Of a stretch of 64,000 bases of DNA, positions 34,285 through 40,655 are shown piece by piece. The translations under genes and the position numbers were made by a program. Location: NCBI RefSeq assembly GCF_000368865.1, contig NZ_KB849727.1:551194-615193 (forward strand). The letters run 5' to 3'. Within the stretch, counting starts at the first letter, position 1. Each line of letters starts with the position of its first letter. The notes beneath the pieces are model-generated. The model did no database searches, was not told where the DNA came from, and was given only the letters and a program-made list of their open reading frames with translations. The DNA comes from Acinetobacter bouvetii DSM 14964 = CIP 107468. GTDB taxonomy: Bacteria > Pseudomonadota > Gammaproteobacteria > Pseudomonadales > Moraxellaceae.

Positions 34285-35454
34285 CTAAATTCGACCGCTT
34301 TCAAAATAGCTGATTTTCGAACGGTCAAAATATCCGCAAGGATCTCCCTGAAAACTATGAAATGCATGTATTGCATGAATGACATGCGAACGGGTATTGT
34401 GCATGAGCTTAATTCTAGGATCATTCTTCGCTAAAGTGATGCAAAATGCGTATTTTCTATAATATTTTATTTGACTTTTGGCATGATACAGAAGGCTGCC
34501 AAACACTTGGGTGTACTGTGGATGGCATAAGGCGCTATGCAGCACTAGATAATCAATCGCGTGATCTTTTTTCGGTAGCAGCAGCGCGCCTTGAAATTGT
34601 GCATATACATTATAAAACGGCTTGGCCAGCGTCAAAGGCCACGAATAATGTACAACCCGTGTTTGCTTAAATGGCTTCTGATCCCATAACCCATATATGC
34701 CGACAATTTGATTTTCCAAATTATAAATAAGATGAAAATCATCCAGCTTTAATCCGCGCCAAAATGGATGATGCCCAGTGATCAGGTTAGAAAAGTCATA
34801 ATTCGGCAAAAAATTATAATGCGCTTTCATCGCATCCGCAAAAGCGTTCGCTGCGGCAATCTTCTCGGGGCTTAAGCACTCAAAACGATACTGCTCATAG
34901 GTTTGTGGCTTTTTCATCTGAGACACCATAAAAGTCTGAATATCATCATAATGATATGGCACAGGAAAGCCCTTCCGCTTTTCGTGCAAAATTTGGCGCG
35001 CAGGCGCATTTCCTTCAAGCACAATACTTTCCAGCAGGCTGTCTGCCGGCAATTTATCCTGCAGATAATCCATCAATAACCGCAGAATTTTCTGTCCGCG
35101 ATAGTCCCGATCTAAACGCAAATCTGAAACATAGCGAAGGACATCCGGTTTGCCATTGATAAAACAATATTTCCAGCCTAAATTCATCATGCCAACCACT
35201 TTGTCCGGCTGATTCTCTGGAACAACCACCCTGATATCTGGACGGTTGTACTGGGTATGCGTTGCATGTAAATAACTTGGATTACGCTCGAATGATAAGA
35301 CCATGCCGTTGCTGGGCATATTTTCGGAAATTAATGTTCTCAGCTGCACATCATCTTCCCCCGTTGCAGCCCTTACATAAAAATGCGGCACTCTTTCGGA
35401 ACGGTATATTTTTTCAACATTGTCTTCTAAGGCATTAGATATTTCTGCATTCAT
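34285..35454 (-). CDS. Tandem GNAT-fold protein, third gene of the GH3 operon
   Basis: A 389-residue cytoplasmic protein. Residues about 25-195 form a GNAT N-acyltransferase domain: VVGMMNLGWKYCFING (beta strands), then LRLDRDYRGQKILRLLMDYL with the acetyl-CoA pyrophosphate-binding R-G-x-x-x-x motif, and ESIVLEGNAPARQILHEK. The second half (IVGIYGLWDQKPFKQ to YAFCITLAKNDPRIKLMH) has the strand order of a second GNAT-like domain but no evident CoA loop. It begins 10 bases after the GH3 gene stop, so it is in the same transcript. The acyl donor and acceptor are unknown. Confidence 0.8.
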   Translation of the reverse strand: MNAEISNALEDNVEKIYRSERVPHFYVRAATGEDDVQLRTLISENMPSNGMVLSFERNPSYLHATHTQYNRPDIRVVVPENQPDKVVGMMNLGWKYCFINGKPDVLRYVSDLRLDRDYRGQKILRLLMDYLQDKLPADSLLESIVLEGNAPARQILHEKRKGFPVPYHYDDIQTFMVSQMKKPQTYEQYRFECLSPEKIAAANAFADAMKAHYNFLPNYDFSNLITGHHPFWRGLKLDDFHLIYNLENQIVGIYGLWDQKPFKQTRVVHYSWPLTLAKPFYNVYAQFQGALLLPKKDHAIDYLVLHSALCHPQYTQVFGSLLYHAKSQIKYYRKYAFCITLAKNDPRIKLMHNTRSHVIHAIHAFHSFQGDPCGYFDRSKISYFESGRI

Positions 35455-35464
35455 GACAACCTAC

Positions 35465-37009
35465 TCAATCTATTTTTATTTTCATTTTCTTTAAAGGTTC
35501 TGGCTTGATATTGCCCTCTATCATGCCGTTATGCATCGCCAGAGTTTTATAATAATGCCATGCATCATCTACATGCTTAATTTCAGGCTCATCCAGTTGG
35601 CCTAAATTTCTTGCAAGTTCATAATGAAAGTTTTGTTTCAAATGTTCATCTAACTGCGCGGCTGAAGGCTGATGCTGCCCATTGCCTTCACTCAAGAGCA
35701 CATAGTGCGGCTTTTTATCTGAGCATTGCTCTATGCCTAATAAACTGATAGGCACATAATCTTCTATTTGAAATTGGCTGAGCACATTGACTGCAACACT
35801 ATGATCCAGTTTTTCACCCACCAAATCCACTGTCAGTTTGCGGCCCAAGAATTTAAAGCAAGGGACTTGCTGATAAAAGCCTGTAACCTCTAATTCATCA
35901 TCAATAACATAGCGCATTAACCCTGAACCGGTTGTAATAACCGGGCTGACAATATCGCCTTGCTTGAGCTGCCAGCTTGGAATGGGCAGTTCTGCATCTT
36001 GAAGCAAAAATTCATAAAAATGAGATTGATAGCTCAAGGGGTATTGGCCATCGAAAGGCAGCGTCACTATACCTTCAGTCGCCCATAAGCCTTTGCCTTC
36101 AAAGCTGACTCCCGCAGCCCGCTTTTGCAGCTGAATTGCCCATTGTTCAGCGCTGGCAGTATCCCAGCTGGAAATTAACGTCAGTTTCGGCCACAGCTGC
36201 TTCCACACGTCTGAACTTTGAAAATCCAGCCCTCTTAGCTTGTAACTTTGCTCACAGGATTTAGGCGCTTCAAGAAAGTCCAGGCTCTTGCGCTGCCATT
36301 TTCCAGTCCTTAAGATCATCGAAATTTCTGCTTGATTTTGCTCAATCATGTCAAACAGCTGCAAAGCGAAAGTTGGGCTCCACACCGAAATCATGCCCAG
36401 ATGCTTATCTGCGGCCAAATAAGTAACCGTCGCGAACATGGCGTCTTCTGCCGATTCTGCCAATGCAATCTCAGCTGGCACAGACTGCGTAATTTTGCTC
36501 AATATGCGCTTTGACACATTCAGCAATGCGCTGTCATCATTGAGGTTGTCATTTTCCAGCAGCTTCCGCTGACTTTCAGGCAGCCATGATACAGACCAGT
36601 AATGTGTTGAATTTCTCAGCTTAGGGTATTGGCGGTATAGGCTTCTTAGCCAGAGTCCTATCGCCTGATCCAATTCATTTAAAAATGTTTGGGTATAAGG
36701 AATAAATTTCAGCGCTTCACTTGAGCCGCTGGTCGGCTGAAACCGGATAATTTTTTCTGCGCTTAAATAGTTTTTCCCGCTGCGGCGGGACTGTTCAATG
36801 TTGGATTTCCAATCCGCATACCGAGTCAGCGGGTACTTTTTAGCGAATTGCTCATAGCTTAACTGCTGGCCAGTATGCAGCAGCACCAAATGCTTCAGTT
36901 TTTTACGCTGCACCCATTCCAGCTGAGACGCTTGCTGCCGAAAACGCTGAAAAGCGCTTCGGCATGCGGCCTCTAGGACGCGGTGGGAAGCGGCCAGCAA
37001 TATCCCCAT
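35465..37009 (-). CDS. GH3-family acyl-adenylating amido synthetase
   Basis: A 514-residue protein of the GH3 (auxin-responsive, JAR1-like) branch of the ANL adenylating enzymes. The ATP loop is QPTSGSSEALKFIPYT near 91-106. The second motif LWATEGIVTLPFDG near 325 corresponds to the conserved Y/W-x-x-(T/S)-E-G. The third is SGLMRYVIDDELEVTGFY with FKFLGRKLTVDLVGEKL, the AMP-binding region and hinge. Plant GH3 enzymes activate a carboxylic acid and join it to an amino acid; the bacterial substrates are largely unknown. The ATG at 37009 follows AAAGGTGG; a TTG at 37015 would overlap the upstream stop. Confidence 0.85.
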   Translation of the reverse strand: MGILLAASHRVLEAACRSAFQRFRQQASQLEWVQRKKLKHLVLLHTGQQLSYEQFAKKYPLTRYADWKSNIEQSRRSGKNYLSAEKIIRFQPTSGSSEALKFIPYTQTFLNELDQAIGLWLRSLYRQYPKLRNSTHYWSVSWLPESQRKLLENDNLNDDSALLNVSKRILSKITQSVPAEIALAESAEDAMFATVTYLAADKHLGMISVWSPTFALQLFDMIEQNQAEISMILRTGKWQRKSLDFLEAPKSCEQSYKLRGLDFQSSDVWKQLWPKLTLISSWDTASAEQWAIQLQKRAAGVSFEGKGLWATEGIVTLPFDGQYPLSYQSHFYEFLLQDAELPIPSWQLKQGDIVSPVITTGSGLMRYVIDDELEVTGFYQQVPCFKFLGRKLTVDLVGEKLDHSVAVNVLSQFQIEDYVPISLLGIEQCSDKKPHYVLLSEGNGQHQPSAAQLDEHLKQNFHYELARNLGQLDEPEIKHVDDAWHYYKTLAMHNGMIEGNIKPEPLKKMKIKID

Positions 37010-37011
37010 TC

Positions 37012-37842
37012 TCAAGCCACCTTTGAATTAGTAGTTGCAGATTCAATATGCAGTGCCGGCTTTATTTTCTTTAAGCTGTCCCGTTTTCCTTTACTGTCCG
37101 ATTTGGATAAGAATCGCTGAACATAACGGTACAAATCCAACCATGTCAGTTCGCCAATACAAGGCAATTCCGTTCCATCAACCCATGTCGGGTTCATGTC
37201 TTCAAAAAATGCAATCTTGACATTTTTTTCGCGCATTTCATGTGTAATCGGCGCAACATCTGCCTTCAATGGCTGATATTCTTCGCCAAAATTCAACAGC
37301 CCTGAGTTTTGGTCAAAATATTCACTGAAATACTGTTCACAATAGGAATTAATGTATTTTTCCAACCGCTGATGCTTCTCTCCATAATGCGGAAAATAGC
37401 TGTAATAATTATTGGCCAGCAGCAGGTAGGTTTTGAACCCTTTAGAAATGAGAATCCAATAGCATGGCGCAAAAGGATGGCGAATTTTATAAGTGATAAT
37501 GTAGCGGTACATAGCCCGCTGCAGCGCCCTGCTGCCCCAGTACTGCTGCTCAATGATCGTGTCGCCGCTGAAAAAAGCATGATGCGCTTTGCCATCGACA
37601 ATAAAATCACGTTCTAGAACTGTTGAAAATCCGACAATCTCTTTGGACTTAGGATCTCTGATTAAAAATACACCCGTCTTTTGCATGAAATCTTTTTCAA
37701 AAATTTCATATTCAGTATTGGCATAATATTTTTTATAAATGCTGTACATCCGTTTGAGTTCGTGAACTGAAATATCTGCAGCCAGCTTATACTCACTGTA
37801 TGGCTCATTATTTAAACGGCGTAAAAGCTTAAATTCGATCAT
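37012..37842 (-). CDS. GNAT-like protein, first gene of the GH3 operon
   Basis: A 276-residue cytoplasmic protein with a GNAT-like arrangement: DPKSKEIVGFSTVLERDF (beta 2-3), then HHAFFSGDTIIEQQYWGSRA leading into a helix, where the CoA-binding R/Q-x-x-G-x-G/A loop would be QYWGSRAL. It continues with YWILISKGFKTYLLLANNYY. The C-terminal third (about 190-276) is unlike standard GNATs and ends in a basic tail. It lies upstream of GH3 with only two bases between stop and the next ATG, so translation is coupled. I am sure of the neighbourhood but less of the enzymatic class. Confidence 0.7.
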   Translation of the reverse strand: MIEFKLLRRLNNEPYSEYKLAADISVHELKRMYSIYKKYYANTEYEIFEKDFMQKTGVFLIRDPKSKEIVGFSTVLERDFIVDGKAHHAFFSGDTIIEQQYWGSRALQRAMYRYIITYKIRHPFAPCYWILISKGFKTYLLLANNYYSYFPHYGEKHQRLEKYINSYCEQYFSEYFDQNSGLLNFGEEYQPLKADVAPITHEMREKNVKIAFFEDMNPTWVDGTELPCIGELTWLDLYRYVQRFLSKSDSKGKRDSLKKIKPALHIESATTNSKVA

Positions 37843-38014
37843 TGTATTTATTCCCTGTTGCCCTTTAGGCAGTATTTTTTTTGTTTTAACAGCCAGATCA
37901 AAGACCCTGTTCTCTTTGGAACGGTGGTCATATTAATTGCATCATTCAAAAAAATGCAATCTGGTTTACGTATTGAAACGAAAAATACGACAAGCGTTAA
38001 ATAAATACACCTAT

Positions 38015-38045
38015 AAAAAAACCTAGCCGAAGCTAGGTTTTTTTA
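38015..38045 (-). terminator. clpB terminator
   Basis: Stem AAACCTAGC/GCTAGGTTT with a CGAA loop and long flanking A/T tracts, about 31 bases after the clpB stop. Confidence 0.87.
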
Positions 38046-38075
38046 TGAAACATCAATGAATATACAAGGTCAAAA

Positions 38076-40655
38076 TTAACTTAATTTCAGCTTTTCAAAA
38101 TTAAGATGTCCATCTCCGCCTTTAATCACAATAGTATCTCCAGCTTCAAATTCTCCCGATAAGATCTTCTGAGCTAAAGGATTTTCAACTTGCTGCTGTA
38201 TTGCGCGCTTCAATGGGCGGGCGCCGTATACTGGATCAAATCCTGCATCAATCAATTGATCAAAGGCACTGTCATCTACAGTTAAACTCATATCTTTTTC
38301 ACTTAAACGTGAACGTAAGCGTGCCAATTGAATATCAGCAATACCGCGAATTTGATCTTTTTTAAGTGAATGGAAAATCACCAACTCATCGATACGGTTA
38401 ATAAATTCTGGACGGAAGTGCTGTGTGACTGCGCTCATGACAACTGCCCGCATTTCAAACTCTGTTGCATCTTCACCCAATTCACGCACATCATTTGAGC
38501 CCAAGTTTGATGTCATGACAATGACCGTATTTTTAAAGTCAATGACACGGCCTTGCGAGTCCGTTAAGCGTCCATCATCCAAAACTTGAAGCAAGATATT
38601 GAATACATCCGGATGAGCTTTCTCAACTTCATCAAACAGCACAACGCTATAAGGTTTACGGCGCACCGCTTCGGTCAACACACCGCCTTCTTCATAGCCC
38701 ACATAGCCTGGAGGCGCGCCCACCAAACGGCTGACCGAATGCTTCTCCATAAATTCTGACATGTCGATGCGGATCATGGCGTCATCACTGTCAAACAGGA
38801 AGTTTGCCAAAGCTTTGGTTAATTCAGTTTTACCTACACCTGTTGGGCCTAAGAATAAGAACGATCCGCTTGGACGGTTCGGGTCTGACAGGCCTGCACG
38901 TGAACGGCGCACCGCATTGGATACAGCCACAACAGCTTCATCCTGGCCCACAACACGGTTGTGCAGAAAGTCTTCCATATGCAGCAGCTTCTCACGCTCA
39001 CCCTGCAGCATTTTCGCAACAGGGATGCCTGTAGCGGCACTGACCACTTCAGCAATTTCGTTTTCAGTCACTTTGGTCCGAATCAGTTTTGGCTCTTCAT
39101 TGATTTCCGCAACTTCTTCTTCATTCAAGCGTTTTTGCAATTCTGGAATAACGCCATATTGCAAACGGCTCGCTTCTGCCAAGTCGCCTTCACGCTGGGC
39201 TTTTTCAAACGCAGTCCGCGCTTTATCCAGTTCTATCTGCGCTTGGTTTGTACCATCAACCAAACGCTTTTCCGCAATCCAGACTTCTTCCAAGTCACTG
39301 TATTCTTTCTGAACTTCAGCAATTTGCTTTTCAAGATGCTCAACTTCCGCCTTGCTTACAGAATCAGCATCTTTTTTCACCGCTTCAAGCTGCATTTTTA
39401 ATTGAATCAGGCGGCGGTCAAGACGGTCTAACGGCTCTGGCTTTGAATCAATTTCCATCTTAATGCGTGAAGCGGCTTCATCAATCAAGTCAATGGCTTT
39501 ATCAGGCAACTGGCGGTCAGTGATATAGCGGTGCGACATTTTTGCCGCCGCGATAATCGCAGAGTCTAAAATTTGCACACCATGATGGGTGGCATATTTA
39601 TCTTTGAGTCCGCGCAAGATTGCAATGGTATCTTCTACACTCGGTTCATCAACCATCACTTTTTGGAAACGGCGTTCAAGCGCAGCATCTTTTTCAATAT
39701 ACTGGCGGTATTCATCCAAGGTGGTGGCACCGACACAGCGCAATTCACCGCGGGCTAATGCAGGTTTCAGCATATTGCCGGCGTCCATTGCGCCGTCGCC
39801 TTTACCGGCACCCACCAAGGTATGCAGCTCATCAATAAAGAGGATGATCTCCCCATCATATTTAGCCAAATCTTTCAGCACGGCTTTCAGGCGTTCTTCA
39901 AATTCACCGCGGTATTTAGCGCCAGCAAGCAATGAACCCAAATCAAGCGACAGCACCCGTTTTCCTTTTAAGCTTTCAGGAACCTCACCATTCACAATGC
40001 GCTGCGCCAAGCCTTCAACAATGGCTGTTTTCCCGACACCCGGCTCACCAATCAGCACAGGGTTATTTTTACTGCGCCGAGACAATACTTGAATCGTGCG
40101 GCGAATTTCTTCATCACGGCCAATCACAGGGTCAAGTCTCCCCTCTAAAGCGCGCGCATTCAGATCCAGTGTATATTTATTGAGTGAATCACGCTGATCT
40201 TCATGGTTATTACTCATTACTTGTTCACCGCCTCGTATATTTTCAATGGCTTTACGCAGCTTATCTGAAGTTACGCCTGCACTATTTAATAAAGACTTTG
40301 TTTTGCCTGTTTCAGCCAAACCTAAAATGACCCAATCGGTAGACAAGAACTCATCTCCAGCTTTTTGCGCAAAACTGTCTGCCAGGTTAAGCGCCTTTAC
40401 GGCTTCTGGATTTAAATTAATATCTCCTGTTGGATTGGCGATGGTTGCTGTATCTGTTAATGCTTGCTGAAGCTTAGTTTTCAGCTCCGGCAGATTTGCG
40501 CCCGCCTGCTGCAGCAAACTTAGATTAGATGGCTCTTCCAGCAAAGCCGCCAGGATATGAATCCCCTCAATCGCAGTATGGTCTTTTCCCATTGCTAAAG
40601 ATTGGGCGTCTGAGAGAGCTTGTTGCAGCCGGTTTGTAAATTTTTCAAAACGCAT
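38076..40655 (-). CDS. clpB: ATP-dependent disaggregase ClpB
   Basis: An 859-residue Hsp100 chaperone that, with DnaK, pulls polypeptides out of aggregates. The N domain spans about 1-145. AAA-1 has Walker A GEPGVGKT near 203-210 and Walker [11 protein letters not shown]. The coiled-coil middle domain is at about 405-530 (heptads such as [19 protein letters not shown]). AAA-2 has [15 protein letters not shown] near 605-612 and the pore loop GYVGYEEGG. Full-length form; the internal ClpB-short start was not examined. Two sigma-32-type promoters lie upstream. Confidence 0.97.

Follow-up and report, generated by a model that had tools for sequence, protein, structure and literature searches.

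A GH3-family gene between two GNAT-fold genes in Acinetobacter: probable core of a pathway for acylated amino compounds, often linked to an export pump

Why does an Acinetobacter genome keep a gene of the GH3 family, whose plant members conjugate hormones, between two genes for proteins with a predicted GNAT fold? The question is raised by a stretch of 64,000 nucleotides from Acinetobacter bouvetii DSM 14964 = CIP 107468 (contig NZ_KB849727.1, positions 551,194 to 615,193), called the window here, in which three adjacent genes, named A, B and C, form what looks like an operon. We consider it probable that A-B-C is the core of a dedicated pathway which makes an acylated amino-acid or amine compound, exported in many species. 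The three genes, in positions of the window, are:

37012 to 37842, minus strand: gene A, a protein of 276 residues with a single predicted GNAT fold and no Pfam family
35465 to 37009, minus strand: gene B, by family a GH3 acyl-adenylating amide synthetase, 514 residues from the ATG at 37009
34285 to 35454, minus strand: gene C, a double-GNAT protein of 389 residues, NMT-like by its predicted fold, ending ...ESGRI

Two bases separate A from B and ten separate B from C, so that the places and spacings given in the original prediction, which had described three tightly packed minus-strand genes from the letters alone, were borne out. The ATG at 37009 was used as the start of gene B; the mechanical list of open reading frames starts it at a TTG, 37015. 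Between the window and two near relatives the ratio of nonsynonymous to synonymous substitutions (dN/dS) is 0.04-0.10 for A, B and C, values that are rough because dS (1.4-3.4) is near saturation, and given this purifying selection we reject that the genes are decaying in the window. Since the trio is also conserved over large distances, the operon is more than a chance arrangement. An NCBIfam scan of the three proteins gave nothing above cut-off.

Gene B contains the three GH3 domains of Pfam, all above the curated cut-off (PF03321 GH3, 1.9e-30; PF23571 GH3_M, 1.2e-15; PF23572 GH3_C, 1.5e-8). Its solved relatives, found with a B profile in the PDB, are plant GH3 amido synthetases (best E-value 2.1e-19), and GH3.15 is the best solved match. 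B has the family and the motifs in common with the plant enzymes JAR1, GH3.12 and GH3.15, from which it differs by low sequence similarity and because those enzymes conjugate hormones; we know of no GNAT partners of plant GH3 enzymes. The three motifs that had been read in the middle gene are indeed present as T93-SGSSEALK (motif I), G307-LWATE (motif II) and G363-LMRYVIDD (motif III), matched by eye to the plant GH3 and OlsH motifs printed in PMC12493201, and most positions of TSGSS...K, GLWATE and GL.RY...D are invariant or near-invariant in a 34-row alignment. OlsH, a bacterial GH3 of Singulisphaera acidiphila, makes N-acyl ornithine from a free fatty acid, ATP and ornithine (PMC12493201). 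Like OlsH, B is a bacterial GH3 in a small operon, shares three nucleotide-binding motif regions and would be expected to form an N-acyl amide in an ATP-dependent reaction; whereas OlsH has as partners an alpha/beta hydrolase O-acyltransferase (OlsI) and an N-methyltransferase, those of B are a single GNAT, a double GNAT and, in many relatives, an export pump.

In gene C, Pfam matches a GNAT domain in the N-terminal half only (PF00583, 3.9e-6; all GNAT matches of the window protein lie in residues 66-163), and the model built from 42 sequences is a double GNAT (predicted local distance difference test score, pLDDT, 92.1; predicted template modelling score, pTM, 0.88). A degenerate second GNAT half, as had been supposed for one of the flanking proteins, is therefore found in C. 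The best fold matches are eukaryotic N-myristoyltransferases (NMTs), with a Foldseek E-value of 1.9e-11 and Z-scores of 18.9-20.6 over 292-320 residues; the match to 4cax (Z 20.6, 306 residues, 4.0 A) places model residues 15-389 on chain residues 114-492. Most NMT rows reach the last model residue, 389, and the human rows align to chain residue 496 or close to it. Residue 496 is the C-terminal residue of human NMT1, in which the C-terminal carboxylate serves as catalytic base and a DeltaC3 truncation is barely active, whereas in the less shortened DeltaC2 variant a neighbouring side chain can take over (PMC7048800); mycobacterial Eis likewise uses its own C-terminal carboxylate (PMC8556138).

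The end of the C protein is fixed. All C proteins share one end column in the 42-row alignment, and 91 of 91 proteins distinct in their last 120 residues end one residue past the last well-conserved column, which is R in 90 and K in one. In the other two proteins the length beyond the matching column varies, with standard deviations of 7.0 residues among 95 A proteins and 8.35 among 99 B proteins. In a set enlarged by six rows from Burkholderiales and by two very remote ones (25% identity, M replacing R), all 99 C rows (98 distinct) end in a single column, whereas the ends of 95 A proteins are spread over 19 columns and those of 99 B proteins over 22; many of the rows are close relatives, and the shared column of the two distant rows is the aligner's placement. 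Over the 99 rows, E-x-[GA]-R-[IL] is favoured at the protein end. Matches ending more than 60 residues before the query end had been removed before the count, for A, B and C alike, so that any C protein whose end is very different may have escaped it. The fixed end, taken together with the NMT-like fold, leads us to infer that the terminal carboxylate of C is catalytic and acts as a base. Folds of the NMT type, whose defining feature is a C-terminus at the active site, have been described before from bacteria and archaea (PMC12219266), and the fold class of C is therefore not new. PDB searches with the C sequence and with a C profile gave no convincing match and no NMT; because a sequence match to NMT is lacking, C is not classed as one and is only said to probably work like one. 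C thus resembles eukaryotic NMTs and bacterial NMT-type double GNATs (PMC7048800, PMC12219266) in its whole-length double-GNAT fold and its length-invariant end, and differs from them in having no sequence-level match, in being encoded in a GH3 operon and in its likely small-molecule substrate.

The window's A protein has no Pfam match above a cut-off, and only one of 41 members of its family matches a GNAT family of Pfam, weakly (PF13527, 0.0042). Its model (41 sequences, pLDDT 86.7, pTM 0.79) has a GNAT fold; its 37 matches in the PDB at E <= 0.001 are headed by aminoglycoside acetyltransferases, and the Foldseek probability to GNATs is 1.0. Among the matches listed (best 50), Z is 11.1-12.8 over 138-176 residues; LasI, at 11.2, lies inside this general GNAT range, and no single GNAT subfamily is indicated by the PDB fold matches. 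A search of the PDB sequences with an A profile gave no convincing match. The proposal of GNAT-like folds on both sides of the GH3 gene, which a failure to model either flank as GNAT would have contradicted, is in agreement with both predicted structures.

Are the three genes inherited together? The surveys covered 149 genomes of the genus and 234 of the order, both including the window's own, and 349 of the phylum. In the genus C occurs in 58 genomes, A in 57 and B in 56, with all three in 54; in the order the counts are 19, 20 and 26, with all three in 18; in the phylum C was found in five genomes, three of them from the same order. Three of the 57 genus genomes counted for A have weak matches only (E 7e-5 to 3e-6); in two other genomes weak matches of this kind belong to a separate protein of about 245 residues. 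G058, one of the 54, holds fragments only, and a few others have a gene in two pieces. Among named genomes, the loci of the best 80 of 126 A relatives hold A-B-C together in 69 cases (in a few of which one gene is broken), A and B only in one (L092), and A alone in ten Burkholderiales. All ten of these Burkholderiales genomes have B elsewhere (one partial, one in two pieces), and in the six inspected it lies inside an A-B-C cluster; lone A is therefore a second copy there, some of these loci having short flanks. That the flanking genes mostly occur without GH3 is thus rejected for the genus, the order and the Burkholderiales, and the conserved, dedicated trio that had been predicted is what the genomes show.

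Some observations on the same families may be added. The stand-alone second copies of A lie at L094, L095, L097-L099, L100 (9890-10756), L101, L102, L104 and L105, and that of L100 sits among genes matching tRNA synthetase families. The weakly A-like family of about 245 residues is present in several genus genomes (L166, 4364-5104; L168, 4086-4817). Remnants of operon genes at L169, L179 and L180, in genus genomes otherwise without the operon, suggest that it was lost repeatedly.

Linkage to pump genes points to export of the product in most relatives examined. The family of each pump gene in the loci was taken from its similarity to members that had been run against Pfam. Of the 69 named A-B-C loci, 49 adjoin genes of an EmrAB-TolC or RND pump: in 37 a gene of the TolC family lies between B and C, and 36 of these have emrA and emrB upstream (in the remaining one, L077, the contig begins inside A); in L088 the EmrA and EmrB genes follow C, and in eleven loci C is followed by an RND gene. 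The GC-rich loci L079 and L082 combine A-B-C with RND genes, as found by tblastn. The order emrA-emrB-A-B-tolC-C recurs in 11 other genus genomes (Pfam was checked on one, and one contig begins inside A). The locus of A. baylyi DSM 14961 (L057) is of the EmrAB-TolC type. At the order level all 13 fetched A-B-C loci adjoin pump genes, namely HlyD-type and RND genes in ten (on the opposite strand in L214 and L215), EmrA and EmrB in one and MMPL in two, one of them beside a decayed operon; the window's own locus, G047 with its genes split over contigs, G280, G326 and G347 are outside this count. A divergent AraC-type regulator, typed from L084, occurs in five of the 13.

A condensation-like further protein is found in some relatives' clusters. 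Seven of the 13 order-level loci encode a relative of the protein of about 346 residues in L091, a type with the HxxxDG motif in four of four members and with weak, below-cut-off PapA_C matches in three of five scanned. In the window there is no emrA, emrB or tolC around the operon, as judged from its open reading frames and Pfam. The earlier statement that no transporter or regulator gene is adjacent is consequently right for the pump-less lineage of the window; it fails for most relatives, which have pump genes in the cluster and, in some cases, the AraC-type regulator. As a side observation, the Marinobacter RND protein (L089) has no PF04957 stretch, while the RND proteins beside A-B-C in L091 (16403-19711, 2.3e-8) and L202 (3364-6762, 1.5e-7) end in such a C-terminal ribosome modulation factor stretch.

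The pathway reading joins what was observed, that is, the anatomy of the operon, the predicted folds, co-inheritance, pump linkage and the fixed C-terminus of C, to reactions, substrates and a product that are all inferred. By its family, B would use ATP to turn a carboxylic acid into an acyl-adenylate and then join the acid to an amine or amino acid. A and C, judged by their folds, may each move an acyl group from a coenzyme A or carrier-protein thioester to an amine of the precursor or product. C would probably do so in the NMT manner, the N-terminal GNAT half binding a long acyl donor, the degenerate second half shaping the acceptor site and the protein's own C-terminal carboxylate serving as the presumed base. 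In most relatives the product would leave through the dedicated exporter encoded in the cluster (EmrAB-TolC, RND or MMPL); in the lineage of the window the pump would have been lost or never gained, and the product may stay in the cell or take another exit. In its most specific form, in which C is a bacterial NMT-type acyltransferase with a C-terminal carboxylate base that acylates the GH3-made amide and does not lipidate proteins, and A-B-C make a hitherto unrecognised class of multiply acylated amino compounds exported in many Acinetobacter and other proteobacteria, the proposal is tentative and we would not expect it to hold in every part.

The company of distant relatives bears on the kind of product. 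In L211 a C homologue stands, without A or B, beside an HxxxDG condensation-like protein, a FeeM-type synthase (PF21926, 8.2e-9) and an MMPL gene on the other strand, and this FeeM neighbour ties C to N-acyl amino acids. FeeM enzymes are GNAT-type makers of N-acyl amino acids, which is their likeness to the present system; the difference is that PF21926 is absent from the families listed for A and its relatives (20 families for 41 members at E <= 0.5). At L220 (6135-18053) an A paralogue and a more distant GH3 occur with genes for a Rieske oxygenase, a short-chain dehydrogenase, a fatty acid hydroxylase and a GMC oxidoreductase, a cluster that looks like a natural-product pathway. L234 (3499-12825) has A-B, two radical SAM/B12-binding proteins, C, a fatty acid desaturase and a Rieske protein; L235, in a related small genome, has the same arrangement (Pfam was run on L234 only). 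These are associations only, and they fit biosynthesis better than simple detoxification.

Several findings weigh against this reading. The trio is not always complete: in the genus B stands alone in G118, C accompanies a broken B in G140, and C remnants only were seen in G018, G063 and G158 (that of G063 was not found again on re-examination); G090, G121 and G139 have genes split into two pieces, and B of G075 is interrupted by a stop. In the order set C is missing from G248, which has A and B; G233 has only a weak C and G243 only a weak A, and GH3 matches are all that was found of the trio in G170, G219, G224, G253, G301, G305 and G357; the operon is decayed in G342, and C is spread over two contigs in G047. 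Genes are broken or split in the named loci L046 (B), L068 (C), L082 (A and C) and L086 (A). As to the proteins, A has no function assigned by Pfam and its GNAT fold matches are generic. The double GNATs 7q3a and 4zm6 score nearly as high against C as the NMTs do (Z 19.4), with alignments that end at model residues 366-368, compared with 389 for most NMT rows. No NMT family is among the 21 Pfam families listed for 42 C members, in a search whose HMMER filters drop most weak matches, and a place of the C-terminus of C in the active site is presumed from the fold alignment of a predicted model and from the fixed end. The FeeM link is one locus, and its genome, G299, also holds A-B-C elsewhere (L210). 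Pumps can be gene-linked for other reasons, and they are missing from all 17 compact named loci (tblastn) as well as from L042, L080 (where the contig ends inside C) and L081, in total 20 of 69. In 11 compact-type genomes, that of the window included, no EmrB is closer than 27-29% identity (28% for the best match in the window's genome), which is little better than the 22-27% of six genomes without A-B-C and compares with 79-100% in three pump-type genomes, one of them the query source. It follows that export is not universal. In a quick B tree the window falls together with the compact Acinetobacter loci in a single group of 17 rows with a support of 100 (Shimodaira-Hasegawa-like approximate likelihood ratio test, SH-aLRT); long branches in other parts of the tree leave its deep joins uncertain.

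Could the operon instead couple unwanted organic acids to amino acids, with the pump expelling the conjugates? Plant GH3 enzymes and mitochondrial glycine N-acyltransferases do conjugate acids to amino acids, glycine N-acyltransferases are double GNATs as well (PMC12219266), and pumps of EmrAB, RND or MMPL type together with the divergent AraC-type regulator of five order-level loci would be in keeping with an inducible response. A conjugation route should not, however, need as many as three to four different acyl-transfer enzymes, and neither the Rieske oxygenases, fatty acid hydroxylase or desaturase and radical SAM/B12-binding proteins beside distant relatives nor the FeeM synthase beside C in L211 is what such a route leads one to expect; we therefore regard detoxification as unlikely. 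A structural aminolipid like ornithine lipid, kept in the envelope and moved across it by the pump or made independently of it, would explain why the lineage of the window retains A-B-C with no pump, and GH3-dependent ornithine lipid synthesis exists (PMC12493201). Acinetobacter does make aminolipids (PMC11828411), yet the ornithine and lysine lipids of A. baumannii need olsB and olsA (PMC11828411). With Pfam, no OlsI-type alpha/beta hydrolase was found beside the window operon, whose neighbours are the GNAT proteins, clpB and a DUF945 gene, and the position of the TolC gene between B and C in more than half of the named loci also speaks against a lipid of the envelope, which we find improbable.

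The whole-length NMT-like fold and the fixed C-terminus of C are equally what one would expect if C, and perhaps A, acylated proteins or peptides as true N-myristoyltransferases do, with B supplying or recycling the acyl groups. Characterised GH3 enzymes make small-molecule amides, however, and the clusters examined, in lists that hold open reading frames of 90 residues and more, showed no recognisable conserved gene for a small substrate; protein acylation seems very improbable to us. The dedicated biosynthetic pathway thus remains the preferred explanation.

The components of such a pathway are not new in themselves, since GH3-dependent amide synthesis and bacterial NMT-type folds are each already known. 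Among the matches listed in the open-licence literature there was no paper studying the A-B-C operon with its exporter. Two articles that appeared to link GH3 with Acinetobacter or GNAT were rejected: in PMC13055320 GH3 is a glycoside hydrolase family, and in PMC8305402 it is the plant GH3. The A. baumannii genes F911_01941-01946, among them those for the membrane protein of an efflux pump and for a 'GH3 auxin-responsive promoter' protein, the others being uncharacterised, have been listed as partners with which an outer-membrane channel protein is predicted to interact (PMC5997985). By their names and numbering these genes are probably a pump-type version of the operon; the passage gives names only and describes no operon or function.

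If the pathway reading is true, A-B-C would be the second GH3-dependent amide pathway of bacteria and one of a different kind, in a genus that includes clinical as well as hydrocarbon-degrading species. One probable native product would then connect a set of 'multidrug' pumps with three gene families whose role is unknown. Bacterial NMT-type proteins would gain what is, to our knowledge, their first pathway, which would suggest that a eukaryotic protein-lipidating enzyme has small-molecule cousins in bacteria. Because the end of C is fixed, the proposed NMT-like mechanism is directly testable by altering the protein end.

The surroundings of the operon in the window lie outside the pathway. 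A-B-C is flanked by clpB upstream and, according to Pfam, by a DUF945 gene on the other side. Two further features belong here:

38076 to 40655, minus strand: clpB, the upstream neighbour that marks the pump-less lineage, outside the pathway
38013 to 38046, minus strand: terminator-like hairpin after clpB, a 15-pair stem followed by a T run

Terminator-like sites are not commoner than chance over the whole region (5, against 4.0 +/- 2.2 in shuffles). ClpB is directly upstream of A in all 17 compact named loci, and in the window the strong hairpin (38046-38013) sits between clpB and the A-B-C operon.

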